Shown here: positions 10,206 to 48,322 of the stretch, piece after piece | Layout: every line of letters begins with the position of its first letter | Position numbering within the stretch: position 1 is the stretch's first letter | DNA from: Linanthus parryae | Taxonomy: Eukaryota; Streptophyta; Magnoliopsida; Ericales; Polemoniaceae | Direction: 5' to 3' | Assembly: GCA_023055425.1 (NCBI GenBank) | Contig: JALGPY010000007.1 | Location: forward strand, 15,820,001 to 15,884,000 | DNA: 64,000 bases | Program-made: the position numbers and the translations under genes | The notes under the pieces: model-generated | The model's database searches: none | What the model was told of the DNA's origin: nothing | What the model saw: only the letters and a program-made list of their open reading frames with translations

Positions 10206-10207
10206 GA

Positions 10208-21609: not shown

Positions 21610-22020
21610 TTGTTGTAAAATGTTTGTTGTAAGTTTATAATGTTTGTTGTAAATTAATATTTAATGTGTTTAGTAAATAATTATATATCTACTTTCTTGG
21701 TACATCAACTGGTTTTACACTACAACCTTTGATAAGCAAGCGAGGTCTTTGCTTTTCTGAAGCCGTCCTTTGATAATTTTGTTAATTGATATTGTTACCC
21801 ATAGTAAATTAGCAATGAATTAAAAATTACCCATTTAGTTGTATTGAAACTCCATATGGTCTCACTTTGTCATTTCGATTCTTTCAACAAGTATAAAAAA
21901 TAATTACCACTCTGTTTATTCTCTTTATCCCAATAAAAGAGTGTCACAAGAAATCGTTGTTAAGTTTTACAGCTCCGTTAATATCGGAGATAACAGAAGG
22001 GCGACGGGAAACCCTAGACC

Positions 22021-23329
22021 ATGGAAGCTACGGTGAAGGACGGCGGCCTACAACGACCTTTATCGGTAGAGGAAGAAGAGGTTGTTCAACTAAACACTAC
22101 CAGATGCAAGGAGGCAATCAAGAACTTCGAGTTCTGTTTGGTAGGATCGTTCATGTTGGGAGGAAGGAAGAACACTTAGGCCATGAAACTTCTATTCCAG
22201 AAAATATGGATGGATGGGGACAAGATCTTCATCAACGAAAACATACCGAACGTCTTTGTCATCAGCTTTCCCTCGAAGCAATCGATGGATCGTGTGCTTA
22301 ATGGAGGTCCCTGGGTTTTCGATGGCGATGTCTTGCTATTGAAACCTTGGACAGTTAGGGCTACGGTGGGGGAAGTGAGTTTCAACTCTATAGACGTCTG
22401 GATTCAAGTTCTTAACTTGCCTCCCTACTGCCTCACTCAAGAGGATGCTCGTGATGCATTTCAACGTTTGGGTCCAATCTTGGATTCGGATCCGCGAATA
22501 ATGTCAGGTGACGCTGGGGATTACATGAGGGTCAGGGTTCGTATTGACACCTAAAAACTGATTTGCCGAGGTGGGTTTGTAATGGCAATAGACGAAAAAA
22601 GTGTGGCTGGATTACCGTTATGAGCGCATATCCCACGTATGTGAATGGTGCGGATGTTTGAATCACTATAGTGATGCTTGCATGAGGAAACCGGTGGACT
22701 TATCAATGGCGGAACCAGGCTTTGGCCCCTGGTTGTTGTTCAAACCACCACCTCGGAAGAAAAAGTGTGTGTTCACAGGGGAGTTTCAAACCGAACCTGG
22801 AGATGCAAAAGAAAGGGTAGATACTGAGAGTTATTGATCCGACAAGAGCACTGAAGGAGACTTTGTTGGGAGTGATTTGGAAGACACGGACTCGGACATG
22901 GTGACAGATGAACCAAAAGACGATCCAAGTGTAAGGAAGGCGCAGGCGATTCTCATTCACGATAACCCAATGGCCAGTGATAGCCAGAGTAAGTCAGCGA
23001 AAGCACAGTTGCAGGATAAAGGAAAGGGGATTAGTGTTCCGACGACAAAACCTAGAGATCAGAAGCCGAAACCAAATCATGTCTCTCCAAAGAAGCAACC
23101 AAACAAGAGGAAGATGCGCGATGTAGTTGTAATCCCATTACCGAAGGAGAAACCAAAAGTTCCGAGATCTCGACAACGCCAAGGAATGAGCAGAACCAAT
23201 GACAAGGAGGAAGGTAGCAACACCAACCCGGTTTCTGATATTCAGATTCCAAACTTGGAGGAGGGCGCCGCAAAGACCCTAAATGCGAAATTGGCAGTGG
23301 CTGTAAAGCAGCACTGCCAGGCACAATAA
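22021..23329 (+). pseudogene. LINE ORF1: DUF4283-like and zinc-knuckle protein (broken)
   Basis: ORF1 proteins bind the element RNA. From the ATG at 22021 the frame reads MEATVKDGGLQRPLS, hits a TAG at about 22177, and continues in frame with FVISFPSKQSMDRVLNGGPW, the DUF4283-type fold of plant LINE gag-like proteins. After a frame change at about 22555-22600 comes a CCHC knuckle, CEWCGCLNHYSDAC (about 22640-22681). A Lys/Pro-rich tail follows to the stop at 23329. The usual order (DUF4283, knuckle, basic tail) is kept, but at least one stop and frameshifts break it. Confidence 0.8.
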
Positions 23330-26300
23330 TGTTTGGGAACCCCCGAAATGTTCTATCTCTTCGCGACCTCGTGAGGAGAAAGAAGCCCATAATGGTCTTC
23401 GTTATGGAGTCCAGATTGTATGAAAAGGAGATGGAGAAAGTCAGGTGTAAATTGGGTTTTCCGAATGGTTTTTTTGTGGATTGTGTGGATCGACGAGGGG
23501 GCTTGGGACTGTTTTGGAGCGATGATGTTTCTTTCACCCTTCATAACTATTCTCGGTTCCACATTCAGGGTTTTGAAAATAATCATGGGTCTGAGTAAAC
23601 TTGGGTTTTTACGGGATTCTACGGCGACCCAGTTCGGCGGGAACGTAGGAACTCTTGGAAGTTGTTAAGAAAGCTACATCCCAAAAACCTTGCCTGGTTG
23701 ATTGGTGGGGACTTTAATGCGATCACGTCATCTGATGAAAAGGAAGGTGGAAGAGAAGTCACTTTCGGACAGACAGAGGACTTTCGTAGAGTTATCCAGC
23801 AATTGCAACTTCGGGATTTCGGTTTTACAGGTAACAAGTTTACGTGGGCAAATAACAGAGAAGATGGAAGTTTTATCAGAGAACGCATCGATCGTGTGTT
23901 AGCGACAGATAGTTGGATTACTTTGTTTGGTTGGCCGAGAGTTAACCACTTGATTGTCGACTCCTCGGACCATGTACCTGTAGAGGTAATCATGAACCCT
24001 AAAGTTGTTGACCGACGAAGAGCAAAGCGACAGTTTCAGTTTGAATCCATTTGGCTACAGGATGAAAGATGCAAGGAGGTGGTAAATGAAAAATGGACGG
24101 GTACCACCAGTGGAATCCGTGACAAGCTCACTAATGTTGCCACTGCCCTCACTTTATGGGATAAGGAATGCTTCGGTAATGTTAGATATAGACTGAAAGT
24201 GTTGCGCAATCAGGTGTCTGCGCTGACTAGCGGCCCCCAAACTGCTCGGACAGTAGCAGCGACAAATGAGCCAAAAACAGAAATAGCAGTCCTTTTAAAA
24301 CAAGAGGAAATACTTTAGAGACAACGATCGCGTATGCTATGGTTGAAGAATGGGGATAAGAACACCAAGTTCTTTCATAGGAAAGCGAGCATCCGACGGG
24401 CACGAAACTGTATTAGTGGAATTGAAAATAATTCAGGGGAGTGGAAAGAAGATGAAGAGGAGATTACAAAAATATTCGAAAATTATTTTTCTGATATTTT
24501 CAAATCCACTAACCCGTTGCATGCAGATATGGAAGATCTTATGAACCTAATTGAGGAGATTCTTAGCTCCTCAAGTAGATCTTGGTTGGATATTCCGTAT
24601 TCTGCCGAGGAGATTGTGGCGGCCTTGAAGGGGATGGCGCCGGAAAAGGCCCCAGGTTTTGACGGATCTCCTCCTCTCTTTTATCAAAAGTTCTGGCCCA
24701 TGATTGGAACTGAAGTGACTGAGATCTTCTTGAAGGTTCTGAATGAAGGGGGTGATATTTCAGAGTTTAATCATACACTCACCGCTTTGATTCCGAAAGT
24801 AAAACAGGTACGGAAAGTTGCAGATTTACGACCTATTTCGCTTTGTTCAACGATTTAGAAACTGGTTACCAAGGTCTTAGCAAATAGACTGAAAGTGATT
24901 TTGTCTGAGTTAATATCAGGGAATCAAAGCGCCTTTTTACCCGGGCGTTTGATTAGCGATAATATTCTAACAGTTGCCGAGCTTTTGGATTCTATGAAAA
25001 AGAAGAAGGGGCGTGTTGGGTTTGCGGCACTTAAACTGGATATGAGCAAGGCATATGATCGCGTGGAGTGGGATTTCTTACGTGCCGTTATGGAGAGGAT
25101 GGGCTTCAGCTTCAGATGGATTGACGTTGTTATGCGGTGTATTTCCACAACTACTTACAATCTTATTATTAACGGCAAGGTCGAGGGCCATATAACTCCA
25201 GAAAAGGGATTTCGCCAAGGTTTCCCTTTATCGCCTTACCTTTTCCTTCTGGTTAGCGAAAACTATCCAAAAATCTTCCTAGCGCCGTTCAGGATGGATA
25301 CATTTTGGGTGTTACAGTTTCGAGAGGAGGTCCGGTGGTTTCTCATCTTTTCTTCGCCCACGACAGTTTGATCTTTACAAAAGCCATTGTAAGTGAATTG
25401 TCCCATTTGTTAAATTTTCTAAACACCTATGAGGTTGCCTCGGGACAGTCTCTGAATTTTCCGAAATCATCCGTAGTGTTTTCGAGCAATGTTAGTGTGC
25501 TAGATCGACAGTGCCTTGGAGGACTTTGCGGAGTCAACGTGGTGGAGTCACATGATACGTATTTGGGGCTGCCTACCATTTTCGGTAGGGAGAAAAAAGC
25601 CCTTTTTCAGAAAATTGTGGAGAGGATTAGTGCACTTCTAAAGGATGGAAGGAGAAGACCCTTTCAGCGCGGGAAAGAAATACTCATCAAATCAATATCC
25701 CAAGCCATTCCGAACTACGCGATGAGTTGTTTTTTATTCCCAAAGGGCCTTTGTGATGATATGGAAAAACTAATTCGGGGTTTTTGGTGGTGTGATACAA
25801 CAGAGATGAAGAAGTTGCACTGGATAAGTTGGGAGCGTTTGAAGGAAGAAAAGAAGGTCGGAGGTATGGGCTTTCGCGACGTACACAAATTCAATGTTGC
25901 TTTATTGGCCAAACAAGCGTGGAGATTAGCACACAACCCGAGTTGTCTCCTAAACCGAATTTTGTAGCACAAATATTATAGGGGAGCTTCGATAATGGAT
26001 GCTAAACCGAAGGGTGCGATTTCTTATGGCTTTCATGGTATTTTATTGATCTGGTACAAAAGGCACGTTCTGGCGTTTGGGTAATGGGACAAAAATAAAT
26101 CCTTTTCACGATAGATGGATAAGGAGGCCGAACAGCTACAAAGTTATCACCCCTTGTCCCGAATCTACGACACTCAAGTGTCTGATTTTATTGTTAATGG
26201 CTCTTGGCACGAAATGAAACTCCGAACACATTTCTGGGAAATTGACGTCGAAGAAATTATGAATATGCCTATTTCATCGAATGGAGAGGAGGACACTAGT

Positions 26301-27394
26301 TGCTGGCTTCATACGGAAACGGGGGTATACTCAGCTCTTACTGGGTATACACTCCAAAATCTCTTAGTTCACCAACTCAAGAGTCTTCTACGGGGTTGGA
26401 TAGGAAGTGGTTACGAAATCTGTGGGCATTGAAAATTCCAAAGAAAGTGATATTCACCTCATGGAGGTTGTGGAACACCTCTCTCCCAGTGGTGGCAAAG
26501 CTCCGTCAAAGGGGAATTTCAGCTCCGGGGGATTGTTGTTTCTGTGAAGCGGGTTTCGAGACGGAGGATCATCTCTTCTCCAACTGTTCAGTTCTTGATC
26601 AATTCTGGAAACTCGTGCTTGGTGAAGGGATGTTGGGTAAAGAAGGCCTAAATGCCAAGGGATGGATGGAGACAATATTTACCGTGGCAAACACGGAACA
26701 AAGATAAAGATGGGCAGTGGGTGTATGGGTGACTTGGTACGCAAGGAATGCCATTCGGTTCGGGTGAGAAGACTATACGGTCCAAGGCATGATGGATAAG
26801 GTGGAGGAACATTTCAGTTTTTTCAAACAAGTGGAGGCGAAGAAAGTTTTTGCGCAACCTGAGGAGGACTCAAGTCCGAAACGCTGGTCTCCACCCCCTG
26901 ATGGTTGGGTCAAGATCAACAGCGACGCGTCGTTGCAGAGGACGCCGGAGGTAGCAGGGTTGGGCGTTGTTCTTAGGGACGCAACTGGAGAGTTTATCGC
27001 TGGTAGATGCAAGCGCACGGATCCTCATAGGTCAGTACTAAATTTGGAACTCTTCGCAATACAGGATGGCTTGAACCTGGCATCTGATGCGGGTTGCTCT
27101 CGAGTCACAGTCGAATCTGAAAACTTGGTGGCTTTAAATTTGATCCGGGGCTGGAAAACCAGGAGGAACTTCGATGATGTTAGCCCTCAAATCAAAATGT
27201 TGATTGATGAGATTATAAACCAGATTTCAGGTTTTGAGGACTGCTTGGTGCAACACATTTACAAAACTGGGAATGAGTTCGCGCACCTCTTCGCTCAGAA
27301 GGCACTTGATTCTAGTTTAGTGCGTCTATTTACTCAGAAACCCGCTTGGGCTATTGATGTATTTGCTAAATACTTAGAGCCTTTTGGCTTCTAG
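23329..27394 (+). pseudogene. LINE ORF2: endonuclease, reverse transcriptase, RNase H (broken)
   Basis: Domains in order: an APE-type endonuclease (about 23340-24000, with IGGDFNAI, RIDRVLATD and SSDHVPV, the metal-binding and catalytic blocks); a reverse transcriptase (about 24600-25400, with APGFDGSP, LDMSKAYDRVEWDFL and FRQGFPLSPYLF); a zf-RVT zinc region (about 26410-26620); and RNase H (26880-27390, with INSDASLQ and LELFAIQDGL). The RT active site reads FAHDSLIF near 25352, so the first catalytic Asp of the FADD box is His. In-frame stops lie at about 23596, 24316 and 24857, with frame changes near 25290 and 25970. The protein is dead. Confidence 0.9.
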
Positions 27395-27439
27395 TAATAT
27401 AATCTCTTTCCCTAAAAAAATAAAAAAAATAAATAAATA

Positions 27440-27987: not shown

Positions 27988-28184
27988 TGATAGATGTATA
28001 TGAGATAAGTTGAGGGGTAGTTTCTGTAAATATCAGGAAGTAGTTTGTTATGTTTGTTATGTTTGTTAGAGTTGTTAGATGAGCTATTGACAGTTGTAAT
28101 GGAGTATATATACTCACTGATACATAATTAGTCAAAATGGGAATGGTTTAATCTTCATTTTCTTTCTTCTTCAGTATTGCGTTA
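27988..28184 (+). repeat. Copia 5' LTR (197 bp)
   Basis: Begins TGATAGATGTATATGAGATA and ends TATTGCGTTA directly before the primer site. GAGTATATATACTC near 28102 contains a TATA box. It has one extra 9-bp TATGTTTGT unit relative to the 3' LTR. Confidence 0.92.
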
Positions 28185-28197
28185 TGGTATCAGAGCC
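28185..28197 (+). other. Primer-binding site (initiator tRNA-Met type)
   Basis: TGGTATCAGAGCC directly follows the 5' LTR. It is the classic plant Copia site complementary to the 3' end of initiator tRNA-Met. Confidence 0.93.
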
Positions 28198-28260: not shown

Positions 28261-28785
28261 ATGGCGGAATCATCCTCCGATCTTCCTTCTAGTTTGAGTT
28301 TCCTCGTCGCAAATCTCAAATCCTTGGTCCAGCTCATGCTCGACTCCACCAATTACATGGTCTGGAAGGCACAAATGGTCACCGTTCTTGAATCAAACGA
28401 TCTTCTCGCCACCGTAACAGAACCACCGCCGCCGGAAACTATTTCTACTCCGTCGCAGTCGTCTTCTCCGAATCCGGCACACCGTGACTGGCTTATTGTT
28501 GATCGCCATCTCCGGTCTTGTTTAATTGCGTCAATTTCACCATCAGTGTTGCCTCTTGTTCTTCATTTGACTTCTGCAAATGCAATTTGGCTCACGCTCG
28601 CTACAAGGTTCACATCATCATCTCGTTCTCATGTTCATCAACTCAAGAATCAACTCTGGACATTAACGAAGGGTTCGAAATCTGCTTCTGTGTTCTTAGA
28701 TTCTTTCAAGCACATTGTCGATCAGCTTTCACATATTGGGGAATTTATTACGGATGAGGATTTGATTCTCTTCATTCTTCGAGGT
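28261..28785 (+). pseudogene. Copia gag, N-terminal part (split by insertion)
   Basis: From the ATG at 28261 (MAESSSDLPSS) the frame covers 175 codons of Copia gag. It includes LDSTNYMVWKAQM, the conserved start of the UBN2/DUF4219-type gag region, SSSRSHVHQLKNQLW and DEDLILFILRG. It stops at Tat element 2 and resumes at 44459 in the same frame with LPSEFN, the expected continuation of LRGLPSEF. Gag forms the virus-like particle. An open frame running to about 28893 is only read-through into the LTR of the inserted element. Confidence 0.9.
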
Positions 28786-29410
28786 TGTGCACAAGAGATT
28801 CCGGCAGGGAGACCTCCGTGTACACCGTACGTAGTGGATCAGGGATCGCACAGGAAGAATAGGGGTGTGTGTAGGGAGAGAGTAAGTCAGTAGCAATGTC
28901 TGAGAGAGAGACAGAGGTTTGGCAGAGCTTCCGCGTATAGCTGTGTTGTTCTCTTTGTGTGGAAAGAGTAACGATATATATATACTGGAGAACGTGACCG
29001 TTGTAGTGTGGTTAATGCGCCCATTAATGGCGGCTTAATTAGCTTAACCATAACGGCACGTTCGTCCGAGTATATAGGAACCGTTAGAGCACGTGGTGCG
29101 TGAGTACCGGAACCGTTATGAGGTTGACCGGGTTTGACCGGATTGACCGGGTCTAGGGAGCTCGTGCCATAGATCTCTCAAAACAGTTACTAAAGGTCGC
29201 GCGCGGGCTTGGCTCGCACGCGACAGGGCTTACCCTAGCCTCCAAACCACAAGTCCCTACAAGTCCCGTGCAGTGGTATGCGAGGGCTCTGTCTCGCAGC
29301 CCCCACATGGATCAGCTCGGCTGGTGATCCTGTGTGTGTGGAGCACAATATGGTGTGCTGGATGGTCGCCACGTGGCCTGGATCTGCCATGTCATAAAGC
29401 AGTATCTACA
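28786..29410 (-). repeat. Tat element 2 3' LTR (left copy)
   Basis: Starts TGTGCACAAGAG and ends AGTATCTACA on the + strand. By eye it differs from the right copy at two sites only (28984 region, TACTGG/TATTGG, and the GCGCCC/GCGTCC site near 29020). Confidence 0.95.
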
Positions 29411-29424
29411 TTAGCCCCCTTTCT
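29411..29424 (-). other. Polypurine tract, element 2
   Basis: The - strand reads AGAAAGGGGGCTAA directly before the 3' LTR start (TGTAGATAC). This is where plus-strand DNA synthesis would start. Confidence 0.75.
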
Positions 29425-30097
29425 GCGCGTGAAGGCTCGTAGCTGTATAGGCTTCTATGCGCGGAAACCAACATGCGCGTCGTCGCCACGCACCAATTCA
29501 AATACGGGTAAGTTCAGCCCCCATGCGTGTCATTATGACCTAAAACCCCTAGAGTCGTGCCGTCTGACCTTTAGGGTTTTAGGCGTGACGTCAGCCCGTC
29601 CTGTGATTGCGCGACACGACGGTGACGGTTGCGATTCGACTACTGAAGGGACGCAACCCCTCATTCTTTTGGATAAATACCTTGTATCCCATTATTGCAA
29701 AGCATCACTTCTTTCTCTTAAAGTGAATGGTACCCGGAGATCTTCAAGAGCAGATCCAGATAATCAATCACCAGTTCAGAACTGCAAATCGTATTCTTCA
29801 ATTGTGCATATCCAAGCAGGCTTCAAGGAAACAAGGTTGGCCTCGTTTACTGTTTGATTTTAGAATACCGGCGTTTGCCTTGAACTGCGTTGAATCTGTA
29901 AACCCATCAAATCTGTGAAGAGGCTTTGATCTTTAAACTTGCTTCGTTTTAATCTTTCAACGATATTGGGTCTTGCAAATCCCCAATTTCTGAAATCGGC
30001 ACCGGAACTGTTTGCTTTCCTTTGCATAGATCTCGAATTCCAAAATTCAAACTGAAGTGTGGTATTTCTCCCCCCTTTTTTTTGCCCTTTCGCAGGA
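29425..30097 (+). promoter_or_regulatory. Putative promoter and 5' UTR of the PMD gene
   Basis: About 670 bp between LTR and first ATG. A TATA-like ATAAATA lies at 29673-29679. The sequence just before the ATG (pyrimidine run, then CTTTCGCAG at 30088-30096) looks like a 3' splice site, suggesting a 5'-UTR intron; a possible donor is AAG|GTTGGC near 29834. All of this is inferred from sequence. Confidence 0.45.
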
Positions 30098-33000
30098 ATG
30101 GCCAAAACAAGAGTAACCAGACCCGTCAAGGAAGATGAAGAGATGCCGGAGCTTCCGCAGGCTCTGTGGCGAAAAGCCCCCTTTCTGGGTGGGAAGGATT
30201 TTTACCACGCAAGGGTGAAGGCGAAGAGAATGCCTGATCCTGTTCCAGTTGAGCGGTTGTTAACACTGACTCGCCCAGTTAACTCAGCCTTGCTCGAGTT
30301 AGTTGGCTCCGAGGATGTGGTTCGATTGGGAATCGAGAATGGGCACTTCCCATACACTGCAATTTCTACTCAGGCGTTTGTCCAGAAGTTGGACTATATG
30401 GATGAGTGGACTGACCACGTGTTGGGTAATTACGCCGAAACTCTCGATGAAGCCGGCATTTTCTTCGCTGTCCGTGCTATGAAGGGTGCTGCCGTGAAGT
30501 TGGATCAGTCCATGCTTCTAGACCTTCTGTCCCGCTATTCGCCTGCGACTCACACGTTTCATTTTGCTGAGTTCGAGGCTGCCCCCACGCTCGAGGACGT
30601 TCAGATGCTGTATGAGCTTTCCCCAATGGGCGAGGTGGACCCCTTGAGTCACCTAAGGACATCTGCGGAATTGGCCTTGTACGCGCAGATGGAGGAGTGC
30701 CTAGCAGAGGTAAAGAAAATCTCCACTCGGTGGACCAGTACAAAACCTCTTCCGAACTGGCAGCTGGTTGATACGTCTGCGAAGAATACCTGGAACAAGT
30801 GGTTGCAGTACTTCTTCCGAGACTATGCGAGCAGCAGCATTACTAAGAAGCTTTTGAGCGGAAACCCGAAGGCCGAGAATTACGTAGAGGGCAAGGGTTA
30901 TCATCTGACCCTTTGCGCCTTTCTTTGTGCTTGGCTGTCGAGGTATCTGATTGATGGTCACCCCCATGACGGGGTCTTCTACCATGTGCTGCCACTTGCG
31001 GTGAGGCTCGCTCTTGGCCAGAGAGTCGCACTTGGGCCCTTGGTCTTGGGTACGTTGTATTATAGGCTGGACCAGCTGGTTCTGGCGATGAGGGAATCGC
31101 GCGGCCGTCTCGATGTTCTGACCTTTGTCAATATCAGCTTTTTGACAATGTGGGTTTTTGAACGCTGGCCGTCTTATGCACCAACTCCCCTCCCACTTGA
31201 GAAGTGGTGTCCCCCAGGCGAGACGAAAGCGCTCAACAGCGGAAGAGCTGCGAGATGGTTTGGAGCAAGCAACACCAAGTGTACTTGGAGCCTGATATGC
31301 GACAAGCGAAGGGAGTTCACTGCCAGGCCTTACGCCACACGCGTTGAGAATGTGCGGTGGTTTCCAAAGCTATACCCCTCCGAAGGTATGGTCTTGTCAG
31401 AAGACCTTCTCTTTGAAAAGGGACTGCATTTCCACGAGCGCTATCGTGAGTTCTTTTGCTGGTGTCTGCGAGGTTCTCTTCCTGCACTTGCAGAGCATAT
31501 TCGTGAGCTCGCGCCACGATATGAAAGGCTTACAGTGGATGTTGACCCCACTCGGGTCTCTCCTCAGTTTGGTTTCGATGCGGTGGCCCCATCAATCTGG
31601 CCCCAGTCTATCGTCAGAGGGTGCTACAAGCGCTTGCTGACAAAGGAGTGCAAGACGGTCCTTATGAGCAATCTTCCCTTCGAGCAGCCTGCGGGAACTC
31701 GCAAGGGTGGTTATTCCCAGAACTGGATCGCATACTGGATTGCCCAGCAGACGAGGATGGAAACGGAGGCGGCAGCGCAGCCAGGAAGGGCCCCCTTGAT
31801 CAAGAGAAACTCTTTTCCGTTTCGCCCCAATTGCAGTTTGAGCGAGTCTGAGTACGGTTGCTACTCGCTGTTGGAACGCGAGAACCACTTGTGCCCCGAT
31901 TTCATTCTGAAGGAGCAGGTCGATGCAACCAAGAAGGGTGACACGCAGGTCCTCAAATATAGCAAGGCGTTTGCTGAGGTAAGCAGTTTCCTTGTGTACT
32001 TTTAAGCTCTTTGGTTTGCTTGCACTGATGCTTTTCGTCCTGTATTGTTCAGTGTCATGTGCGGAGGTTCGCAGCTGGTGACCGCTCCAAACCGCTGGTG
32101 GACACTATTGTTGCTACCAGAAAGAGGGGAGAATCGTACCGGCTAGCATGGAGGATGGATGCCGAGGTCGAAACAAAGGTTCGTGCAGTCATGAACACTT
32201 TCGCTGACTCGCTGATAGACAACCCTCAGGCTCCGTCTCCTCCTAGGGATGACCCGTCCCCTCCAGCGACTGCGGCGCCGAGAGTGAAAAGACCTAGGCA
32301 AAAGGGAATTACGATTTCTTCCCCTAGGAGCGCTCCAGCTTCGCCCCCAGTGAGGTCCCTTTCTGTCAAGGACAAAGGTAAGGGTCGTATGCCCGGCAAG
32401 GTGCGAAAAGATCTCGTAGTTGAAACCTTCGTTCCATTCAACCAAGAGGAAGAGGAAGAGAGGCAGGAGCCCCAAGCAAGTAATGAAGAAGAAGAAGAAG
32501 AAGGAACAGTTGTGATGCGCGAGGAAGAGTCAGGAGGTACTTCCGTCGCATTTCCTTGTCCTTTATCATGACTTCTATGCAGTTCTTTTCTTTGAACCAA
32601 TTGTATATTCGCAGATGATGATGATGAAGCCGTTGGTAACTTTGTGGCCAAGAGGCAAAAGAGAGATGTTCATTCTGGCGTTTCAGATGATCCCATAAGC
32701 GAGGATGTTCTTGCTGAGTCCCGGAGGACAGCCGCAGAGGCTGCTGAGAGAAGAAGGCAGCGAGAGGAAGAGGAGCTCGAGCGTGTGAAGCAACGGAGCC
32801 TCGAAGAGCAGCATGTCGACGACCTAGTGCGTCCAGTTGGCGAGGAAGACGAGCTTCCCGAAGAAGTGGCTCCTCATGTGGAGGAAGAAGACGAGGTTCC
32901 CGGCGAGGATGCAGCAGAGCTAGAGCAAGTCCAAGCGGACTTCGCAGAGATCGCAGGTGGCGATAAAGGTGAGATCTTCAATCTCGCAGTCACTTATAGA

Positions 33001-34391
33001 GATGTAATTGTGGGTGCGTTGAAGCACGGTGTGTCAAAGCCTGACATTCGCCGTTGGTTGGTAAGCAAATGCGGAGAACCCTCAGGTAATCATTTTGAGT
33101 GATATGCATGCACTAGGCTGTGACCATTTGAGACAAAGTCATGACTGGTTTAATCGCATCCCAGGTCACGCCTCTCTTAAAGACTTGCTTAGTGAGGATA
33201 CACTGATAGGGCACGGTTCCACGTCCCTAGTGTATGATGAGGATACCTCAATCCCACCTTCGCGTGGAGGTGCTTATTCTTAGCTTTAGCAAAGATAACG
33301 AAATAACTTACAACACAAGTTACCTCATATTATCGCATTTGATTTCGCAGGTCATGCTGAGGAACCTGAGCTGGAGCAGAGAAGCCAGACTTCTGCATCC
33401 CATGTTCCAATTTCGAGCTCCCATACCGAGAAGCCCGTCGCAGCTGCCGGACACGCAAGTGAGCATCTCGAGAATGTCATTGAACTTTCCGATGATGTCG
33501 AAGCTGATGCCGTGCCGATGGACGAAGGTGTCCGTACCGGTGGTGAGGAGGAAAGGACAAGTGATGCCAACATTTTCGCATCTGATAGTGTCTTCCGTCC
33601 AGCGACTCCGGTTGTGCCTCCGGCGATGACTGAGCCAAGAGCACCTATTCCTGCGTGGAGCATTTGGGGCTCGCAGGTTGGGAATGTACTCGCAGCTGGT
33701 GCGGCCTACACTCTTCCTCCTAACTATGAAAGTTTGGAGCTCGCAGCTGATAGGAGAGCCATGGAGCGAGGGCAGTCTTCGAACAACCCGGTGGCTCGCA
33801 TTCCCTCTATTCATGAAATTCTGGAAGGCACTGGTAAGCAGAGATTTTACCATTCGCACGTCGCATTATTTGCTTGCGAGTCTTGACATCATGACTCTCT
33901 TTTTTGATATCTCAGGTTTGAAGCAAACCGATGTAGACTGGGTGGTTCGAATGCGCCTCAGATACCCCCGATCGTTTGTGAGGTGTCTGGAGATCAGTCC
34001 TTTTGACAGGAGGCTATTCCTTACTGAAGCCATCTGGATACTAGAGCAGCTGTGTGCGGCTACACCTGCGACCATTTCGGCCCAGAGTGCCGAATTGCTG
34101 TGTGGCATGTGCCAAAATCTCGTGCTCAAAGTCCAAGGCAGACTTGGTTTCAAATTTCTCAAGGACAGAGTTACACTGATTCGCGCAGCTGTAACTTTGA
34201 ATCTCGGGCACCAGAATCTCGCAGCTGAGATGCAGAAGGTGGAGCAGCAGAAGCAAAAGGTTGATGAAGCTTTGAAGCTGTATCATGAAATGAATGCTAA
34301 GTGCGAGCAACTAAAGCAAGAAGTGCAACAAGTGGAGAGGCTGATCGAGCAGTTCGAGCCCCAGGACTCCTTAGTCAAAAATTTGTTTTGA
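30098..34391 (+). CDS. Antisense PMD-domain gene, copy 2 (six exons, intact, 1299 aa)
   Basis: Exons: 30098-31978, 32053-32536, 32615-33085, 33165-33269, 33351-33833 and 33916-34391. Introns are 74-82 bp with GT-AG ends, phases 0,1,1,1,1, and the exons sum to exactly 1300 codons including the stop. The start MAKTRVTRP at 30098 follows a CAG acceptor-like site. Residues about 50-560 form the plant mobile domain, with ATHTFHFAEFEAAPTLEDV near 155-175. Residues 628-790 are Ser/Pro-rich then acidic. About 790-850 has an Asp run, a basic KRQKRD (possible nuclear signal) and a charged coiled coil. About 1225-1290 is a second coiled coil. The gene is antisense to gag-pol. Related antisense extra ORFs are known in Tat/Retand elements. 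A nuclear DNA- or chromatin-related role is inferred, not shown. Confidence 0.85.
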
Positions 34392-35849
34392 CTTTTCGAA
34401 TTTTGAAAAGAAAACAGGAAAATGGTTGAGGCATTAATGTAATATTTTGAAACATTAATGTAATGTTGCTAGGGTTTCTCCCCCTTCTTTTTTAACAACA
34501 AACAATGAGTTTGCCCGTTTTGCCCTTTTCGGGATTTGATTGGACATTTCTGTGCATATCCAAGTAGGACATCAGCAATTGATTCTTTGCTTGATTTTCG
34601 CGCTAATTTCTCGGCAGATAAGCACGCTTCCGTTGGGAAGTCCATCCGAATCATGACTATCCGTCATTTATTAGGATACGCAACCGAATCGTCGTAGCCT
34701 TTAGTAGGGTAATTGATTGTTACCGCTTTTCAAGGCGTAAGTGATTGAACTTACCCTCTTTTTGAATTTGCTGACTCATCTTAGGCAACCGAAGAGTCTC
34801 TACAGGGCCTATATAAACCCCGTCTTTGCTATTTGGGTTCTTCATCCCAAACATGTGCTTTGCCGTGAGTCGTTACGACTGCTGGCTTCAACGCTTGTTT
34901 TTCGTTGATTCATGGCAACTTCAAGTTTTGAATCCTGAGTTTGCGCTTTGTGCTATAGAAATAGTTTCCAAGATCCACTTTATGAGGCTTATTGCTGTTT
35001 ATAACCGTCATAAAGAGGATGCAGATAATATCTCATGTGTGTTCGAAGAAATTTCTTCGTGTATTATGTGTGCAGGTCATGTTTCCGGCCGCCTTGTGGC
35101 GAGGTGCAGCGCCGAAGTGACCGTGCTACCGTCTCGTAATGAACGGCAGAATTCTCCTCCAGCATCCCTGGAGGAGAACTCATTGCCCCCACGTTCTTGA
35201 ACTCAGGGTTGTAAACCGCTGTGTTCATCCCCGTCTACAAGGAGCCCTTGCCCGTTGGAGCTTCTGCTTGCAGCTTGATCGCCGGAACCGGTGGTTCCTT
35301 GGGCAAATGTTATGGGGAGCGTATCTGACAATGGTCTTGTCGGATAGCGGAATGTCGAGCGTATGGTTTCATGTGGCTCTTTTTAGAGCGAGATCCCCTT
35401 TGCTACAGATGTCACCCACAGATTCGGGCATCATGTAGCCGGCGCTTGAAGCCAGGGCGATTCATTCTTTGCAGTCCGGGTTTCCATACCGTGTCTCTGC
35501 TGGCTGATCAGCCATTTTTCGAATGTATTGTAAGCCATGTTGGCTGTGTAGTTAGATGCGAGCTTTTCGCTTGTAAGCTGCTATCTAGATAGATAAATTG
35601 TAAGTCATTCGACTCATAATGATAAATAGTATTTGTATCATCTGTTATTTGCAACAGAGTACAATTTCGCATGCGTTTCGGCTTGTCTTGCCTTGCATAA
35701 TGACATGTAATGATTTCACATACGCGATGTCGATTGCAAATGTTTCGATAGATCATTCGAGATCGTAATTTCGCAGCTGTGCCATCTTGACGGATGGGCT
35801 TGTAGTTGGTCGTTGTAAATCGTATGAGATCACGTTCACAACATTGCTA
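34392..35849 (+). other. Spacer between PMD gene and hairpin array, element 2
   Basis: It matches 6188-7689 of element 1, including repeated ATTAATGTAAT motifs near 34433-34463 that may help 3'-end formation, and the TATA-like box listed separately. From about 35140 to 35500 the two copies differ strongly, then match again. No protein family is recognised. Confidence 0.45.
34810..34817 (+). promoter_or_regulatory. TATA-like box downstream of the PMD gene, element 2
   Basis: TATATAAA in a conserved context. About 50 bp downstream is GTGAGT (34865), and at 35071 TGCAG, a donor/acceptor pair kept in both copies. This may mark a second + strand transcript that crosses the array. Confidence 0.4.
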
Positions 35850-37225
35850 TCGTTCCAGATAATTTTCCAGAGATCAATCAAGATCGTTGAGCTGTGCGAA
35901 TTGCTATCATAGAAGATAGGCTTTGTATGAGATCGTTTCTCGCATAAACTGCTATCACAACAGACAGATCTTTAGAAGATCTAATAAGATAATTCTGCAG
36001 TCGCGTTGCCATCATAACAGACGGGCTTGGGTGGTTAATCAAAATTACTTTGCATATAAATTGCTATCGTAACAGATAGGCTTGAGAAGATCACTATAAG
36101 ATCGCATCTGTATAGCCCGCTACCTCAAGAGGTAGACGTTAGATGATCGATTGAGATCGTTTTTGTATTTCGCTGTTATCGCAAAAGATAGGCTTTGGAC
36201 GATCATGTAAGATCGTATTCTCGTTTGGGTGCTATCGCAAGAGATAGGCTTCAATGATCACTTAAGATCGCATTCGTATTTGATTGCTACCATGAGAGAT
36301 AGGCTTTAGATGATCACTTAAGATCGCATTTGCGTTTGGCTGCTATCGTAAGAGATAGGCTTTAATGATCACTTAAGATCGCATTTGCATTTGATTGCTA
36401 TCATGGGAGATAGGCTTTAGATGATCACTTAAGATCGCATTTGCATTTGGCTGCTATCGTAAGAGATAGGCTTTAATGATCACTTAAGATCGCATTTGCA
36501 TTTGATTGCTATCATGAGAGATAGGCTTTAAACGATCACTTAAGATCGCGTTCGTATTGGCTGCCATCGTAGGAGATGGGCTTTAGATGATCACTTAAGA
36601 TCGCGTTCGCGTGTAGCTGCTATCGTAAGAGATAGGCTTTAGATGATCGATTAAGATCACATTTGTATTGGCTGCCATCGTAGGAGATGGGCTTTAGATG
36701 ATCACTTAAGATCGCGTTCGCGTGTAGCTGCTATCGTAAGAGATAGGCTTTAGATGATCGATTAAGATCACATTTGTATTGGCTGCCATCGTAGGAGATG
36801 GGCTTTAGATGATCACTTGAGATCGCATTTGCGTGTAGCTGCTATCATAAGAGATAGGCTTTAGATGATCGATTAAGATCAGATTTGTATCGGCTGCCAT
36901 CGTAGGAGATGGGCTTTAGATGATCATTTAAGATCGCATTTGCGTGTAGCTGCTATCATAAGAGATAGGCTTTAGATGATCGATTAAGATCAGATTTGTA
37001 TCGGCTGCCATCGTAGGAGATGGGCTTTAGATGATCAGTTAAGATCACGTTTGCGTTTGCTGCTATCGTAGGAGATAGGCTTTGAATGATCGATTAAGAT
37101 CACGTTTGCGTTTGCTGCTATCGTAAGAGATAGGCTTTGAATGATCGATTGAGATCGCATTTGCTATCGTAAGAGATAGGCTTTAATGATCAATTAAGAT
37201 CGCGTTTGTATTTGCTGATATTGCA
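35850..37225. repeat. Hairpin tandem array of element 2
   Basis: About two dozen units of about 54-60 bp with the stem CTATC-N6-GATAG and a GATC-N6-GATC block. At about 36540-37030 two unit types alternate (stem CTATC/GATAG and stem CCATC/GATGG), giving a higher-order repeat of about 118 bp. The array is longer than that of element 1 (about 1.4 against 0.95 kb), showing expansion or contraction within the family. Confidence 0.92.
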
Positions 37226-37289
37226 GCGAATAAATCTTTAACGGCAATAATAAATTAAATAGAACGATATAAACAGCTAGATATATGAA

Positions 37290-37375
37290 CTTCTCATTTG
37301 GGAGAATTCTTTTATTATAGCATTCTCATATGGGAGAGATAGGATTACAATCCTCTCATATGGGAGAGGAGATTG
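37290..37375 (-). terminator. Candidate 3'-end region of gag-pol RNA, element 2
   Basis: Three palindromic motifs (TTCTCATTTGGGAGAA, TCTCATATGGGAGA, CCTCTCATATGGGAGAGG) and a - strand AATAAA (37311-37316), about 120 bp past the pol stop. The order is the same in element 1. Confidence 0.35.
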
Positions 37376-37438
37376 CGAATACCGTAGCCACATGAGATAT
37401 TAAACAGCGTTATTATAACACGTATGAAATAAGAGAAG

Positions 37439-39743
37439 TCAAGGATAGTACTTCTTGATCCAGCGCATGTTGATTGAGCTTGGAGTCGAGGTTGTGCCGT
37501 GCAACCTTCGTATGCTGCAGTAGCCGCTATCGAAGACTTCGGTAACTTCGAAGGGTCCTTCCCAATTAGCTGCGAACTTTGGGTGAGTTGCTTCTCGCAT
37601 GCAGTGGTCAGATGCGCGCAAGACCAGGTCGCCAACTGCGAAATCCCGTCGCTGGACTGTCTTGTTGTAGGCGCGAGCGATTCTTTCTTGGTACCGCTTG
37701 TTAGCCCTTTTGGCTTGTTCTCGCTTTTCTTCCAGCAAGATTAAATCATGATCGCGTTGGTTTTCGTAGAGTGCGTGGAAGGCCAGCCTTGCCGAATTGA
37801 CTCTGACCTCCGCAGGTACCACAGCTTCGGCCCCATAACATAGTAAAAATGGCGAGGCCCCTGTGGGTGTCCTTGGAGAAGTTCTGTAGGCCCACAGAGC
37901 TATGTTGAGAGAGTCGGCCCACTTCTTGTGGTCATCTGCGACCATCTTGCTCAGAATTCTCAGCAGCGTTTTGTTAGTCGCCTCGGCTTGCCCGTTTCCC
38001 TTTGGATAATAGGGGGTAGAGCATATCTGCCTGATATTGTACTCCGCAAGTTTTGTAGCTACCTGACGATTAACAAAAGGAGTACCGTTATCTGAAAGAA
38101 TAGTATTCGGGATTCCGAACCTGCATATGATGTTTTCCTGGATGAAGTTGACCACAGCCAGCGCGTTTGCTGTCTTCAGTGGTATTGCTTCCACCCATTT
38201 GGTGAACAGCTCGGTTGCTGTAAGAATGAAATGGTTCCCATGTGACGTTGGTCGGATGGGGCCGATGAAGTCCAAAGCCCATGTGTGAAATGGCCATGGC
38301 GTTCCTAGTGCATGTAGGTCCACAGCGGGAGCGTGCACTAGGTTCCCTTTGAATTGACATTCTTGGCAGCGTCGCACCTTGGTGCGGCAATCGACTTCCA
38401 TCGTGGGCCAGAAGTATCCGATTGAGAGGAGCTGTCTGCATAATTTCGCACCTCCCTGGTGTTCCACCTGATGAGAGAGATCCATGACTTCTTGTGCTTC
38501 CCTATCGTCTAGGCATCGCAGCAAGTTGCCCTCGTGACCTTTTCGCCAAAGCAGGTTTTCTTGAACCACATATCGAGAAGCTTTCCTCCTCAATTTATCT
38601 GCATCTTTTCTCGATTCGGGTACGGTGCCCTTGGTGAGGAATTCAAACAATGGCTTTCTCCAGTCTGTATCGTCATCGATTAGAGCGACAAGTAGAGAAT
38701 CTTTGATTAGTGCGCAACTCTCGCACTTCCCTTGTATCAGGGCTGCGGCTGTAGACATGCTTGGCCAATGGATGCCATATCTCTGAGCTTTCCTGTAGAT
38801 TGACACCTCGCTTTCTCCGCAAGCGTGTTGGTGAATCTTTTCCAGCAGCTGTTGTCCCTCTTGCTCGGAGACGCATCGCATGAGTATTCCTCCGGGACCC
38901 TTGTAGTAAAGGGTGTTGTCGTGGATACAGTATCCTTTCGTGAGTGCCCAGCTCTCGCTACTGGTGCCTTTCGCAATAGCTTGCAGGATTGCTTTTCGCC
39001 AGTCCGCGTCATCCATGTGTTCGTCGTCGCACGCATCTTCTGTTAATGCCGACGAAGTTCGCACTTCGATGGAAATCCTCGCGGGGCATTTGTCTATGCT
39101 GACCTTAGATCCTAGGGTTGCTAAGGCGTCTGCATGCCTGTTGTCCGCTCGGGGCTTGTGCTCGTATTTCACGTCACAGAATTGCTGCATCAGCTTTTGC
39201 ACCAGAGTGCGGTATGACAGGAGGTTGATTTCCTTTAAACCATATTCGCCCGAGGCTTGCTTAACAATCAGTTTGGAATCTCCCATGACCGTTAAGTTGC
39301 TCACTTCTAAAGCTTTCGCTGTACGAAGCCCTGCGATAAGAGCCTCGTATTCCGCCTCATTGTTCGTGACTGCGAAATTGAGTTTTGCGGACATCTGTAT
39401 GACTTCCCCGTCGGGCTTTGTCAAGACTATCCCAATGCCCCCGCCTTTTCTGGTTGACGAACCGTCGAAGTGGAGGGTCCAATAGGGCACGTCGATCGCG
39501 TAGATTTCAGGGCCTTCGAGCTCTTCCTCGATCACGGGTTCGTGACTGTTGTCGGGGAACTGTGCCAACAGATCTGCTACCGCCTGCGACTTGATCGCTC
39601 TTGGCCTTACGCATGTGATGTCGTATTGAGAGATGGTCATATACCATTTCGCCAATCTCCCGCCCGGAGTAGTGTGAGTTAGCAAGTATCTTATGGGGTC
39701 GCTTTTGGTGACCACCACTACTTTGTGCGATGCAAAATAGTGT
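37439..39743 (-). CDS. Tat pol: RNase H end, archaeal-type RNase H, integrase
   Basis: Continuation of pol after a frameshift near 39744. It starts in the tail of the first RNase H (TPGGRLAKWYMTISQYD). It then has a second RNase H of the Tat type (about 39080-39490: WTLHFDGSSTRKGGGIGIVL, NNEAEYEALIAGL, DSKLIVKQ, NRHADALA). Next come the zinc-binding HHCC module (HQVEHQGG ... CQEC), the integrase core with DFIGP, SDNGTPF and the E of GNGQAEATN, and the NWEGPFEV C-terminal module ending in WIKKYYP. All integrase catalytic residues are present. It is part of one long polyprotein with gag, protease and RT in the next entries; the frameshift means it could not be made from the RT frame. Confidence 0.93.
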
Positions 39744-41174
39744 CAACTTCTCTATCACAAAGAATAAAGCAAGGCAATGACGTTCGATGTCTGTGTACCT
39801 TGATTCAGCAGGCTGCACAATGCGAGAGATGTAATAGATAGGCCTCTCTTGACCCTCATATACCTGGGCCAAGAGTGCTCCTATAGATCTCCTTGTTGAT
39901 GTAAGATATAGCAGCAGCGGTGATCCCAGTTGAGGCGCGATCATAATCTTTGGGGATGTAAGTATCTCCTTTAGTTTTCCAAATGCGGCTTCGTGGTCAG
40001 GAGCCCAGTTGTATGCGGCGTCCGTCTTGAGAAGAGTGCTGAAACAGCATGTGATTTCGGCGATTGCTGGGATGAATCTCCGCAGATATGACAGTTTTCC
40101 CAAGAATGTTTTCAAGGCACTTTGGTTGTGAGGTGGCGTCATGCTGGTGATGGCTGACACTTTCGCAGGGTCAGGCTCGATCCCTTGGCGATGGACCACG
40201 CACCCCAAAAACTTCCCCGAGGTCACGCCGAATGCGCATTTCATAGGGTTCATTTTCAGTTGAAAGCTCCTGCATCTGTTGAACACTTTTCGCAGGTCTG
40301 CGAGGTGATCTGCTTCATGCCTGGATTTGACTACCAGGTCATCCACATAGAATTCCACTTCTTTGTGCATCATGTCATGGAATAGAGCCATCATGGCTCG
40401 CTGATAGGTCGCGCCTGCGTTCTTGAGACCGAATGGCATTACCGTGTAGTTGAATACCCCCACGGGAGTGATGAATGCAGTTTTCTGTGCATCTTCGGGA
40501 TCCATCTTGATTTGATTATACCCACTGAAGCCGTCCATGAAACTGAACATGCGATGGCCTGCCGTCGAATCGATGAGCAAGTCGATGTTAGGCAGTGGGA
40601 AATCATCCTTAGGGCAGAAACGGTTGAGATCGCGGAAGTCCACGCAGATGCGGAGCTGTCCGTTCTTCTTCACCACCGGCACGATGTTGGCTAACCATGT
40701 AGGATGGTGGTTTGGCTCTATGAACTTGGCGTCCAGGAGCTTGACAATCTCCTGTTTGATCTTCACGTTGAGCTCTGGCCTGAAGCTTCTGGTGCTTTGC
40801 TTGACCGGTTTAGACCCTGGGATGACGTCTAAACAGTGCATGGTGATGCTCGTGTCCAGACCCGGCATTTCATCGTATTCCCATGCGAATACATCCTTGT
40901 ACTCAGTTAGGAGCTGCAGCAGCCCTTGTTCCTCTTCGCTTGTGAGGTCCGCACTCAGGAAGACTGGCCTCCTCTTTTCCTCGTTCGGGCTGAGGAACAC
41001 TTCCTTTAGCTCTTGCTTTTGTGGTCTTGGCCTGTCTTCCATGCATTCGGGCGCTTCTTTGAGTTTCTCGTCTGAAGCGATCTGTGTTGGCTCTTCTGTC
41101 AGCGCAACTTGTTTGGTTCGATTGATTTTCCCAGGGACACCCCCATGCCCGTGTGAGGACGTCCCCGCGCACCT
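39744..41174 (-). pseudogene. Tat pol: reverse transcriptase and first RNase H (frameshifted at its end)
   Basis: The RT has KPVKQSTRSFRPE, WLANIVPVVKKNGQLRICVD, FMDGFSGYNQI, TPVGVFNYTVMPFGLKNAGA and the active-site box FYVDDLVVKS (about 40330-40357). The connection and RNase H follow (FLGKLSYLRRFIP, PLLLYLTSTRRSIGALLAQ, SRYTDIERHCLAL). At about 39744 the frame is lost: pol homology moves to another frame, equal to a loss of 2 bp or a gain of 1 bp. The sequence after that in this frame (to 39507) is out-of-frame. The segment is in the same frame as gag and protease, from which it is separated by a TGA at 41175-41177. Confidence 0.9.
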
Positions 41175-41177
41175 TCA

Positions 41178-41675
41178 TATGCGATAGCATTTCTTCCCGT
41201 TGGCGTAGAAGCTCTCTATCTCCTTACCCTCGGGGTCATGCTTTGCAATCCTCTTCAGGGTATACACATTTTTCCGATGGTATGCGATACGCGGCGCCTC
41301 TTCGTATGTAGGCGGCTTTTCGTTTGCATCTCCCCTTGTTACCATCACACCTGCAGGTGACTGGTCCTTGATGTCCTCCCAAAGAGGTAAAGGAGTAGGG
41401 TTGAATGGTCCAGGTGTTTGCTCGTCGGCCATCTCGGTGAACCACACCGCCTCGCTGAGATGTGCTTCGTCCAAGTTGAATGGGTTGGTTGAGGCCGGTA
41501 TTTCGACAATCCTGTCGTTCCAGATAGCTTTCATCATCTGGTGAGCCGTGGAAGGGATTGCGTCGAAGCAATGAATCCAGGCTCGACCGATGATCATGTG
41601 ATATGTGGTGTTCGCATCTATGACGTAGAATTTCGCCGAACACTTGATCTTACCAATCTGAACGCCTAGGCGGAT
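41178..41675 (-). pseudogene. Tat pol: protease C-terminal part and linker, between two stop codons
   Basis: The segment is in frame with gag upstream and RT downstream, but is bounded by TGA at 41676-41678 and TGA at 41175-41177. It begins with IRLGVQIGKIKC and contains TYHMIIGRAWIH, the typical end of a Tat-type aspartic protease, then a linker of about 120 residues. Both TGA codons could come from CGA by C-to-T change at a CpG, which is common in methylated transposons. I cannot exclude programmed read-through, but two such sites would be unusual. Confidence 0.75.
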
Positions 41676-41678
41676 TCA

Positions 41679-43787
41679 TCCGATCGTCATTCTAGAGTCG
41701 CTTCCGAATCCCACCAGCGGGGATGGACGCTTGACCACTTTGTGCTCGGGGATCCCTGCTAGCTTGAGTGTGTGGAGGGGAACAACATTGACCGCTGCTC
41801 CTCCATCGACAAACGCTCGCTTGAATTCGACGCCGTTGATGATGGCGGTGACGTACAGGGGCCTCTGGTGGCTCGCATCTGTCTTCTTGTCGCTGGCAGA
41901 AAAGGTCATAATCTTTTCTGTGGGACGGGACGCCCTGATGACTTTCCCGTTGGAGACTACGAGCTCCTCTTCGTAGTCCTCCGCTATCCTTAAGATTGCT
42001 TTCGTCATATCCGCTCGGCATTTTTCTGAGAAGTTCATCTCATCAAAGAATTTGCTGAAGCCGTGCGACCCTTTCATGCGATCGGCACGCTCATCCTCTG
42101 TGTCCATGTTGTAGTCTTCCTCTTCATGGACTTCAGCGATGATCGGTAGACCATCCTCTGCGACTTCTTCTAAGTCTACTATCGAGATCATGGCGACCTC
42201 TTTGCCCTTTGAGCCCGAATCTGTATGGGCAGGCAGCGGGTTGCTGCGCACGTCTTTCCGGTGGTCACTGACGATGAGTTCGCCATTCTTCATCTTCTGG
42301 TCGAACGCGAATCTGAGCTTCTTGCACTCGGCTGTAGGATGCATGATCTTGCCGTGGTATTCGCACCACTTAGGGTCTCTCGTCATCTCCTTGGAGGGTG
42401 TTTTCTCGAGCGGTGGCAGGACGCCGTCCTTGCGCCACTGTCTGCAGAGATCGCTCGCTTCCTCCACCGAGCATGGCAGAGGCGGTGCGTCGAAGTTTGT
42501 AACCCTTGCTTGCTTCTGGGGCGAAACTGCGTTGACTTCAGCTTCGCGTCCTCGCTTGTAGCCGAATCTGCCGATCTTGTAGGTGGTGCCGCTCGCAGGT
42601 CGTTCTGGAGCGCTCTTCTTTCTCTGTCTCTCGACAATGGGCTCGATGTTCATCGTGCACTCGATGAGCTTTGAAAACGTGGGCGTTTGCAAATTGATCA
42701 GCATGCTCTTGTATTCATCTCGCATGCACTGCAGGCATATCTCCACGAGCCGGCTTTCGAGCATGGGGTCCTTGCATTCCAAGGATTTCGCTCTGAATTT
42801 CTTGATGAAAGTGATTCCATCTTCCTCGCGTTTCTGATACATCCGCGAGAGGTGGATCATCGTCACCTTCTCTTCCATCTGGAAGAACTTGGTATAGAAC
42901 TTCTGGACCATGTCGTCCCAAGTCTTCACGGATCCGGCTTCCAACGTCCGGTACCATTTGTATGCTACATTCCCAAGAGTCTTTGGGAACTCTCGCATCA
43001 GCAGTTTGGGATCAGCTCCGTATGGACCCATGACGTCAATGAAACGCATGACATGCTCATGAGCGTTCCCGTTGACGTCCTCGAACTTATCCCATTTAGG
43101 AGCCTTGTACCCCGCCGGGTTAGGCATGAGATAGATCTCTCGTGGAATGGGTGGATCGTTGTCTAGCTTCGGGATGATGGTATCCGCGAGCGACTGATGA
43201 GCTAGGATGGAGTCCACGCGCTTCTGCAAGGACGTCATGCATTCTGGGAGGCTTCCCTCGGTAGCTGTCGGAGGGATTGCCGTAGGCGGTGGCGACACAT
43301 ATGCCGCCGGGGGATTGGGATTATATTGACTGCCCGCGTTTCCCCAAATCGTCGCTGGTGGAGGCAGAGTGTACTGCAAAGTTGGGTTAGACGCCAAAGC
43401 CGTGGGCTGAGAGGCGTGAGCGGCAGGGGGTAGCATTTGCGCCGTTGACCCTTGGACCGAAGGCAGCTGCGCGGCTGACGGTGGAGTTTGCAGGTGAGGG
43501 TTGGGAGGCGTGGCCGACACTCCCAATCCCGGAGCGGTAGGGGTTCCTCCTCCCTGAGGGATGGCGGTACCTGGTGGAGGATTTGGCGCAAGGGTGCCCA
43601 GAACGGCCAAGATTCGCTCCAGCTGCGCAGATTGAGACTTGAGAGTTTTTGCCTGACTTTGGACAGTGGCGTCCAAAGACTCCAAAGTTGGTGCCTCGCC
43701 GGGAGTCGTCGGAGTACGGCGGACTTCTTCTCCCGAGGGAGTTTCGGCGGAAGGCGATCGGTTGCTGACATCATCCTCCTGAGACAT
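41679..43787 (-). CDS. Tat gag with protease N-terminus (703 aa)
   Basis: Starts at the ATG at 43785-43787 (MSQEDDVSNRS), 41 bp from the LTR. Residues about 35-65 form a short coiled coil (TVQSQAKTLKSQSAQLERIL), followed by a Pro-rich region. The capsid-like gag domain (PF03732-like) is at about 220-390: PKWDKFEDV, YKWYRTLEAGSVKTWDDMV, FYTKFF, RAKSLECKDP. A zinc-knuckle-like CEYHGKIMHPTAEC with one Cys replaced by His, as is usual in Tat gag, is near 475. The start of the aspartic protease, with DGGAAVNVV, is near 668. Gag packages the RNA and the protease cuts the polyprotein. The frame ends at a TGA inside the protease. Confidence 0.92.
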
Positions 43788-43808
43788 GGTTGCTTTTGCT
43801 GGTAAGTT

Positions 43809-43828
43809 TCACGTCGGGTTCACCAAAA
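43809..43828 (-). other. Leader / primer-binding region, element 2
   Basis: The - strand reads TTTTGGTGAACCCGACGTGA directly after the 5' LTR, as in elements 1 and 3. The tRNA primer is not identified. Confidence 0.6.
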
Positions 43829-44453
43829 TGTGCACAAGAGATTCCGGCAGGGAGACCTCCGTGTACACCGTACGTAGTGGATCAGGGATCGCACAGGAAG
43901 AATAGGGGTGTGTGTAGGGAGAGAGTAAGTCAGTAGCAATGTCTGAGAGAGAGACAGAGGTTTGGCAGAGCTTCCGCGTATAGCTGTGTTGTTCTCTTTG
44001 TGTGGAAAGAGTAACGATATATATATATTGGAGAACGTGACCGTTGTAGTGTGGTTAATGCGTCCATTAATGGCGGCTTAATTAGCTTAACCATAACGGC
44101 ACGTTCGTCCGAGTATATAGGAACCGTTAGAGCACGTGGTGCGTGAGTACCGGAACCGTTATGAGGTTGACCGGGTTTGACCGGATTGACCGGGTCTAGG
44201 GAGCTCGTGCCATAGATCTCTCAAAACAGTTACTAAAGGTCGCGCGCGGGCTTGGCTCGCACGCGACAGGGCTTACCCTAGCCTCCAAACCACAAGTCCC
44301 TACAAGTCCCGTGCAGTGGTATGCGAGGGCTCTGTCTCGCAGCCCCCACATGGATCAGCTCGGCTGGTGATCCTGTGTGTGTGGAGCACAATATGGTGTG
44401 CTGGATGGTCGCCACGTGGCCTGGATCTGCCATGTCATAAAGCAGTATCTACA
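43829..44453 (-). repeat. Tat element 2 5' LTR (right copy)
   Basis: 625 bp, two differences from the left copy over the full length by eye. GAGGT target duplication follows at 44454-44458. Confidence 0.95.
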
Positions 44454-44458
44454 GAGGT

Positions 44459-48317: not shown

Positions 48318-48322
48318 TAATC

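Follow-up and report, generated by a model that had tools for sequence, protein, structure and literature searches.

A predicted six-exon PMD gene, apparently under purifying selection, antisense to gag-pol in a Tat-clade retrotransposon of Linanthus parryae

Results

The Tat element and its surroundings

The window, by which we mean the whole stretch of 64,000 nucleotides of Linanthus parryae DNA that was analysed, contains a Ty3/gypsy LTR retrotransposon with gag-pol on the minus strand and, on the plus strand, a predicted six-exon gene for a PMD (PF10536) protein (Table 1). The LTRs have the termini TG and CA, and the two differ at 2 of 625 aligned sites, which bears out the original prediction of a young insertion. 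The insertion interrupts a Ty1/copia element (28052-48318). Repeats of this element are found on both sides, at 28052-28185 and 48185-48318, with its gag before the insertion and its RT after it. Several TTGACC motifs in the LTR at 28786-29410 are, we presume, WRKY-box-like.

Elsewhere in the window, a third, more distant Tat-like element in opposite orientation, with LTR and gag pieces about 74-77% alike and tandem repeats at 62787-63578, extends over 60818-64000 and probably runs off the end. A probable LINE-like remnant, in which parts of an endonuclease and a reverse transcriptase occur in disrupted frames, occupies 22000-27400, and a piece of a Myb DNA-binding gene, perhaps part of an ordinary MYB gene, lies at 56879-57553 on the plus strand.

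Table 1. Coordinates of the Tat element, the PMD gene and the second copy of both within the 64,000-nt window.
Feature	Position	Strand	Remarks
Ty3/gypsy Tat-clade LTR retrotransposon	28786-44453 (15,668 bp)	gag-pol on -	LTR pair, target-site duplication, domains
LTR at gag-pol 3' end	28786-29410 (625 bp)	-	2 mismatches to 43829-44453
LTR at gag-pol 5' end	43829-44453 (625 bp)	-	pairs with 28786-29410
Target-site duplication GAGGT	28781-28785 and 44454-44458		flanks the Tat element
gag and, by position, start of protease	41679-43808	-	Retrotrans_gag, E 6.7e-7
gag-pol frame stretch ahead of RT	41178-41675	-	protease continuation by position only; without Pfam match
Reverse transcriptase and first RNase H	39510-41174	-	RVT_1, E 1.2e-29; RT_RNaseH_2, E 1.5e-18
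Second RNase H (aRH) and integrase	37442-39742	-	RVT_3, Integrase_H2C2, rve; frame differs from RT part
Tandem repeat array, ~55-nt unit	36062-37221		between pol and PMD gene
Possible promoter and leader of PMD gene	29674-30097	+	TATA-like site at 29674, a weak match, to consensus only
Exon 1	30098-31978	+	627 codons; PMD (PF10536) at residues 127-498
Exon 2	32053-32536	+	basic NLS-like KRPR at residue 706; acidic tract starts
Exon 3	32615-33085	+	acidic tract ends; NLS-like KRQK at residue 801; charged stretch
Exon 4	33165-33269	+	alternative donor 6 nt upstream
Exon 5	33351-33833	+	
Exon 6	33916-34391	+	predicted C-terminal helices, one of 69 residues; stop
Unusually conserved, apparently noncoding block	34494-35088 (copy B 6292-6887)		between PMD gene and tandem repeats
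Second, truncated element of the same family (copy B)	2063-10854	-	one LTR, 10229-10854; gag-to-aRH stretch absent
Second copy of PMD gene	2063-6187	+	about the first 56 codons missing; PMD, E 2.7e-26
Exons of second copy	2063-3776, 3852-4329, 4408-4878, 4958-5062, 5144-5632, 5712-6187	+	

Tat elements are recognized by two RNase H domains and a polyprotein with the reverse transcriptase before the integrase, and an aRH between RH and INT is the mark of the angiosperm Tat elements Ogre and Retand (PMC6317226). The domain order found here is RT, RT_RNaseH, RVT_3/RNase_H and rve, with RT-RH followed by aRH and INT, in agreement with the earlier assignment to the Tat type; the antisense position of the PMD gene is likewise evident from the strands. 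The word “intact” of the original prediction holds for the PMD gene, whose frame is open, and fails for the element. The gag-pol frame carries in-frame stops at 41676-41678 and 41175-41177 and changes between the RT part, which ends at 39507, and the aRH-integrase part, which starts at 39742. Because the stop at 41175-41177 precedes RT, where some elements naturally split their frames (PMC6317226), we count as clear damage the stop at 41676-41678 and the RT/aRH frame change.

Within the lineage, the PMD points to Ogre. The size of the LTRs, the antisense location of the gene and the presence of tandem repeats point to Retand instead, and these three features fit the descriptions of Retand rather than the Ogre extra-ORF case. 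In the survey of Neumann et al. 2019, 57% of Ogre elements had a PMD and 23% of Retand elements had Transposase_28 (PMC6317226); their Ogre elements are, like ours, Tat-lineage elements with an extra ORF carrying PF10536, there described as single ORFs, in contrast to our spliced gene. Retand is characterized by antisense extra ORFs, which Vicient 2025 found in representative elements of all clusters, with Transposase_28 in 97% of clusters (PMC11963269). As here, the Retand antisense gene lies between pol and the 3' LTR, often with tandem repeats in that region, and the average LTR of 635 bp resembles the 625 bp of our element. On the other hand, the pol-3' LTR region measures 2,933-6,566 bp in Retand and 8,028 bp here, and the available excerpts of that survey name mostly Transposase_28 and do not list PMD, the domain found here (PMC11963269). 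Transposase_28 (PF04195), a common but not universal antisense ORF domain of Retand, gave no match in exons 1, 2, 3, 5 and 6, the scan covering all but the 35 codons of exon 4. The primer-site region may resemble the 3' end of tRNA-Trp. The primer site described for Ogre is that of tRNA-Arg (PMC9289625).

Gene model

The PMD gene (30098-34391) joins its six exons in one frame of 1,300 codons including the stop, for a predicted product of 1,299 aa, across five GT-AG introns of 74, 78, 79, 81 and 82 nt in phases 0, 1, 1, 1 and 1. When the GT and AG sites near the five junctions were combined, 2 of the 16 combinations gave fully open frames, and these differ by the 6 nt at the exon-4 donor (1,299 or 1,297 aa). 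Retention of any single intron leads to a premature stop (5/5), and the introns have a GC content of 0.33-0.42 compared with 0.49-0.55 in the exons.

We also determined the longest spliced-open path over the 4,294-nt stretch, allowing at most five introns of 60-150 nt and making the start codon optional. This path measures 3,962 nt on the plus strand and 2,060 nt on the minus strand, and in 15 dinucleotide shuffles it ranges from 944 to 1,556 nt; the minus strand too lies above the shuffles, by a smaller margin. A chance frame is ruled out by the comparison with the shuffles and with the opposite strand, and by the second copy described below. Splice enumeration, shuffles and second copy all agree with the original prediction of a 1,300-codon frame with five GT-AG introns.

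Upstream of the gene, a single ATG (29727) occurs within 29690-30097, and CAG directly precedes the start codon. Together with the TATA-like site, and like it a consensus match only, this CAG hints at a promoter within the element and perhaps at an intron in the leader. Its location between pol and the 3' LTR, its orientation opposite to gag-pol and its conservation in two copies place the gene with the antisense accessory genes of the aORF-3R kind.

Second copy and selection

Comparison of the Tat element with the rest of the window revealed copy B, which includes the tandem repeats, the integrase and the part of the PMD gene that follows from about codon 57. In this copy, the primer-site region is directly followed by the gap from gag to aRH, and unrelated sequence on the left cuts the PMD gene near codon 57. 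Each copy has one array of the ~55-nt unit (7911-8621 in copy B), and the copy numbers of the unit differ.

All five splice-site pairs (donor GT, acceptor AG) are kept between the copies, which upholds the conserved gene structure claimed at the outset. Differences affect 227 of 3,727 exon sites and, at about twice that rate, 48 of 391 intron sites (p = 1.7e-5); intron 2 differs least (5/78), not above the neighbouring exons. There are two exon indels, both of 6 nt and in frame. Among the introns, intron 1 has an indel of 1 nt, intron 5 has one of 1 nt and one of 2 nt, and introns 2-4 have none. Differences at codon positions 1, 2 and 3 number 49, 44 and 136, respectively. Over 1,241 codons, dN/dS is 0.192 (codon-bootstrap 95% interval 0.144-0.256), a single estimate from one copy pair that includes the unselected time after each insertion; by part, it is 0.094 in the PMD and 0.384 in exons 4-5, where selection is weaker. 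These ratios rule out a functionless passenger.

The kept splice sites, in-frame indels, intron excess and low dN/dS together point to a coding gene that is kept by selection in the element family, which we regard as the most likely reading, in preference to a chance frame or a passenger. The gene appears to be under purifying selection as a protein, its splice-site dinucleotides being kept across both copies. It is this selection between two diverged copies that is the stronger evidence; intactness in a young insertion is weak by itself.

Could the antisense transcript itself be what matters, pairing with the genomic RNA to give small RNAs by which the element is tuned or silenced, with the frame secondary? 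Antisense transcripts have been discussed as a source of dsRNA (PMC7264820), and 175 PHAS loci have been reported at PMD genes of the tea plant (PMC10673657). However, the differences between our two copies track codons and splice sites, a pattern that an RNA-only role does not predict, and we judge this explanation to be quite improbable.

The integrase of the two copies (450 codons) has a dN/dS of 0.056 and a dS of 0.174, close to the 0.176 of the PMD gene, so gene and element diverged together and the gene was not picked up lately. A host PMD gene recently captured and carried as a passenger would account for introns like those of an ordinary gene, and the transduction of host sequences by retrotransposons has been reviewed (PMC7264820). 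Such a capture is nevertheless extremely improbable in our estimation, because the gene is common to two diverged copies with the dS of the integrase and a low dN/dS, and because PMDs of Gypsy elements form clades of their own: according to Ikeda et al. 2017, PMD-A1 and PMD-A2 are encoded only by Gypsy elements and are widespread in angiosperms (PMC5418596).

Predicted protein

Exon 1 matches the Pfam PMD profile with an E-value of 4.5e-26 and 92.3 bits against a cutoff of 34.9, and the second copy does so with 93.0 bits, which supports the PMD identity that had been proposed for the product. Given the published PMDs of Gypsy and Ogre elements, such a match is expected for an element of this kind. 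Exon 1 also matches DUF7745 weakly, below its cutoff. The acidic tract noticed earlier spans residues 759-798 with a net charge of -18, and both NLS-like motifs that lie on either side of it occur in the translation of copy B as well.

The C-terminal coiled coil of the original prediction, which places another putative one in exon 3, is consistent with a structure model of exon 6 (157 aa) from a two-sequence alignment, in which a single helix runs over residues 78-146 (69 residues, mean pLDDT 73.6). We place moderate confidence in this predicted helix; nine weak coiled-coil-type Pfam matches in the exon are all below their cutoffs. For exon 1, which contains the PMD, the two-sequence model was unusable (mean pLDDT 29.4). 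No credible sequence relative was found among solved structures, the three chitin synthase matches having an E-value of 0.13. In a protein database presumed to be poor in plants, none of the 7,998 scored candidates reached an E-value of 0.001, and six peptide patterns had no match in viral contigs presumed to be similarly poor in plants. Rfam yielded no matches at gathering scores.

The NLS-like motifs, shared by the two copies, would suit a nuclear factor that serves particle import, integration targeting or copy assembly instead of silencing, in the manner of accessory retroviral proteins, and such roles have been raised for other antisense ORFs (PMC7264820). We consider them unlikely here, though worth keeping in mind: the five exons scanned (all except exon 4) contain no particle- or integrase-related Pfam domain, and host PMD relatives act in transcription and silencing (PMC5418596, PMC7156037). 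The latter source also describes a “DOWN” promoter motif.

A conserved block downstream of the gene

The block between the PMD gene and the tandem repeats differs from copy B at 15 of 595 sites, compared with 48 of 391 in the introns (p = 1.9e-9) and a dS of 0.176. It seems to be noncoding. A second plus-strand gene, at 34853, was rejected as a conserved coding gene since its first 80 codons contain 6 differences, 5 of which alter the amino acid. The block holds TATATAAA at 34810 on the plus strand. When the 337-nt piece 34494-34830 was folded, 0 of 100 shuffles were as good for the sense strand (z = -2.97) and 17 of 100 for the other strand (z = -1.17). The LTRs are likewise similar between the copies, with differences at 23 of 625 sites. 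Either cis-acting constraint or recombination between sub-lineages would explain the high likeness of block and LTRs.

Discussion

Our analysis makes it probable that 30098-34391 holds a genuine accessory gene of a Tat family, one that has introns and encodes a protein; its product would be a nuclear regulator that aids expression of the element. We propose that transcription of the gene starts at a promoter internal to the element, runs antisense to gag-pol and is followed by splicing, and that the protein, most likely nuclear, regulates transcription or chromatin to the benefit of the element's own expression. The antisense gene of maize Grande (gene23) is a close parallel, being an antisense accessory gene as well; its own promoter and nuclear product are described for Grande, while for the present gene both are inferred (PMC7264820). 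Antisense proteins like that of Grande are without clear database similarity (PMC7264820), in contrast to the PMD match obtained here.

The strand arrangement bears on how introns could persist in a retrotransposon. The genomic RNA corresponds to the other strand and so does not carry the splice signals, and each round of retrotransposition would leave the introns in place. Strand-specific intron excision is also the principle of retrotransposition reporters (PMC12786077).

Could the product act on the silencing machinery of the host? PMDs borne by Gypsy elements share ancestry with host silencing proteins including MAIN and MAIL1 (PMC5418596), and the present gene resembles PMD-A1 and PMD-A2 in being a PMD in a Ty3/gypsy element related to these host proteins. 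We put forward, as a tentative possibility, that the element PMD interacts with the PMD-phosphatase silencing module of the host (MAIN, MAIL1, PP7L) or competes inside it, and that the predicted coiled coil makes the protein oligomeric. An anti-silencing role is plausible by analogy with the VANC proteins of Vandal transposons. For these elements an extra ORF with such a role has been reported (PMC11728184); what they would share with our element is an encoded protein that relieves silencing, reported there and guessed here, although Vandal is a DNA transposon with a different protein and ours is an LTR retrotransposon. The kinship of the domain, which is the sole ground for an anti-silencing role, would fit a recruitment of silencing equally well.

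A broader and rather unlikely idea is that the Tat antisense strand serves as a shelter for intron-containing genes. Introns invisible to the splicing of genomic RNA would then allow an element to keep a full eukaryotic-style gene, the product would turn the host PMD-phosphatase module against itself, and host MAIN/MAIL and element PMD would descend from one ancestor through an arms race.

How much of this is new? PMD genes in Gypsy elements and antisense extra ORFs in Tat elements are already known. The original prediction held that the gene would be worth describing, which stands for its multi-exon architecture and not for the Gypsy PMD clades (2017, PMC5418596) or the antisense ORFs (PMC11963269), both already published. 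What we add is the spliced structure in several exons, backed by the comparison of two copies: the account of PMD-A1 and PMD-A2, as far as its excerpts extend, describes no antisense gene of six exons that includes acidic and coiled-coil regions (PMC5418596). Among the matches listed for the open-licence PMC literature, in which Steinbauerova et al. 2011 is cited as the original survey, no spliced PMD gene in a Tat element was recognized. Neumann et al. used getorf with ORFs of at least 250 codons (PMC6317226) and Vicient used ORF Finder with single ORFs (PMC11963269). As both surveys took single ORFs, spliced genes would probably appear in them as fragments, which suggests that such surveys break up genes of this kind.

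For the Tat family, the result is a gene model that is complete and apparently under selection, and whose junctions can be tested. A large spliced PMD gene is a useful test case for how such elements deal with host silencing, and should the protein act on the MAIN/MAIL1/PP7L pathway, one could directly test how that pathway arose.
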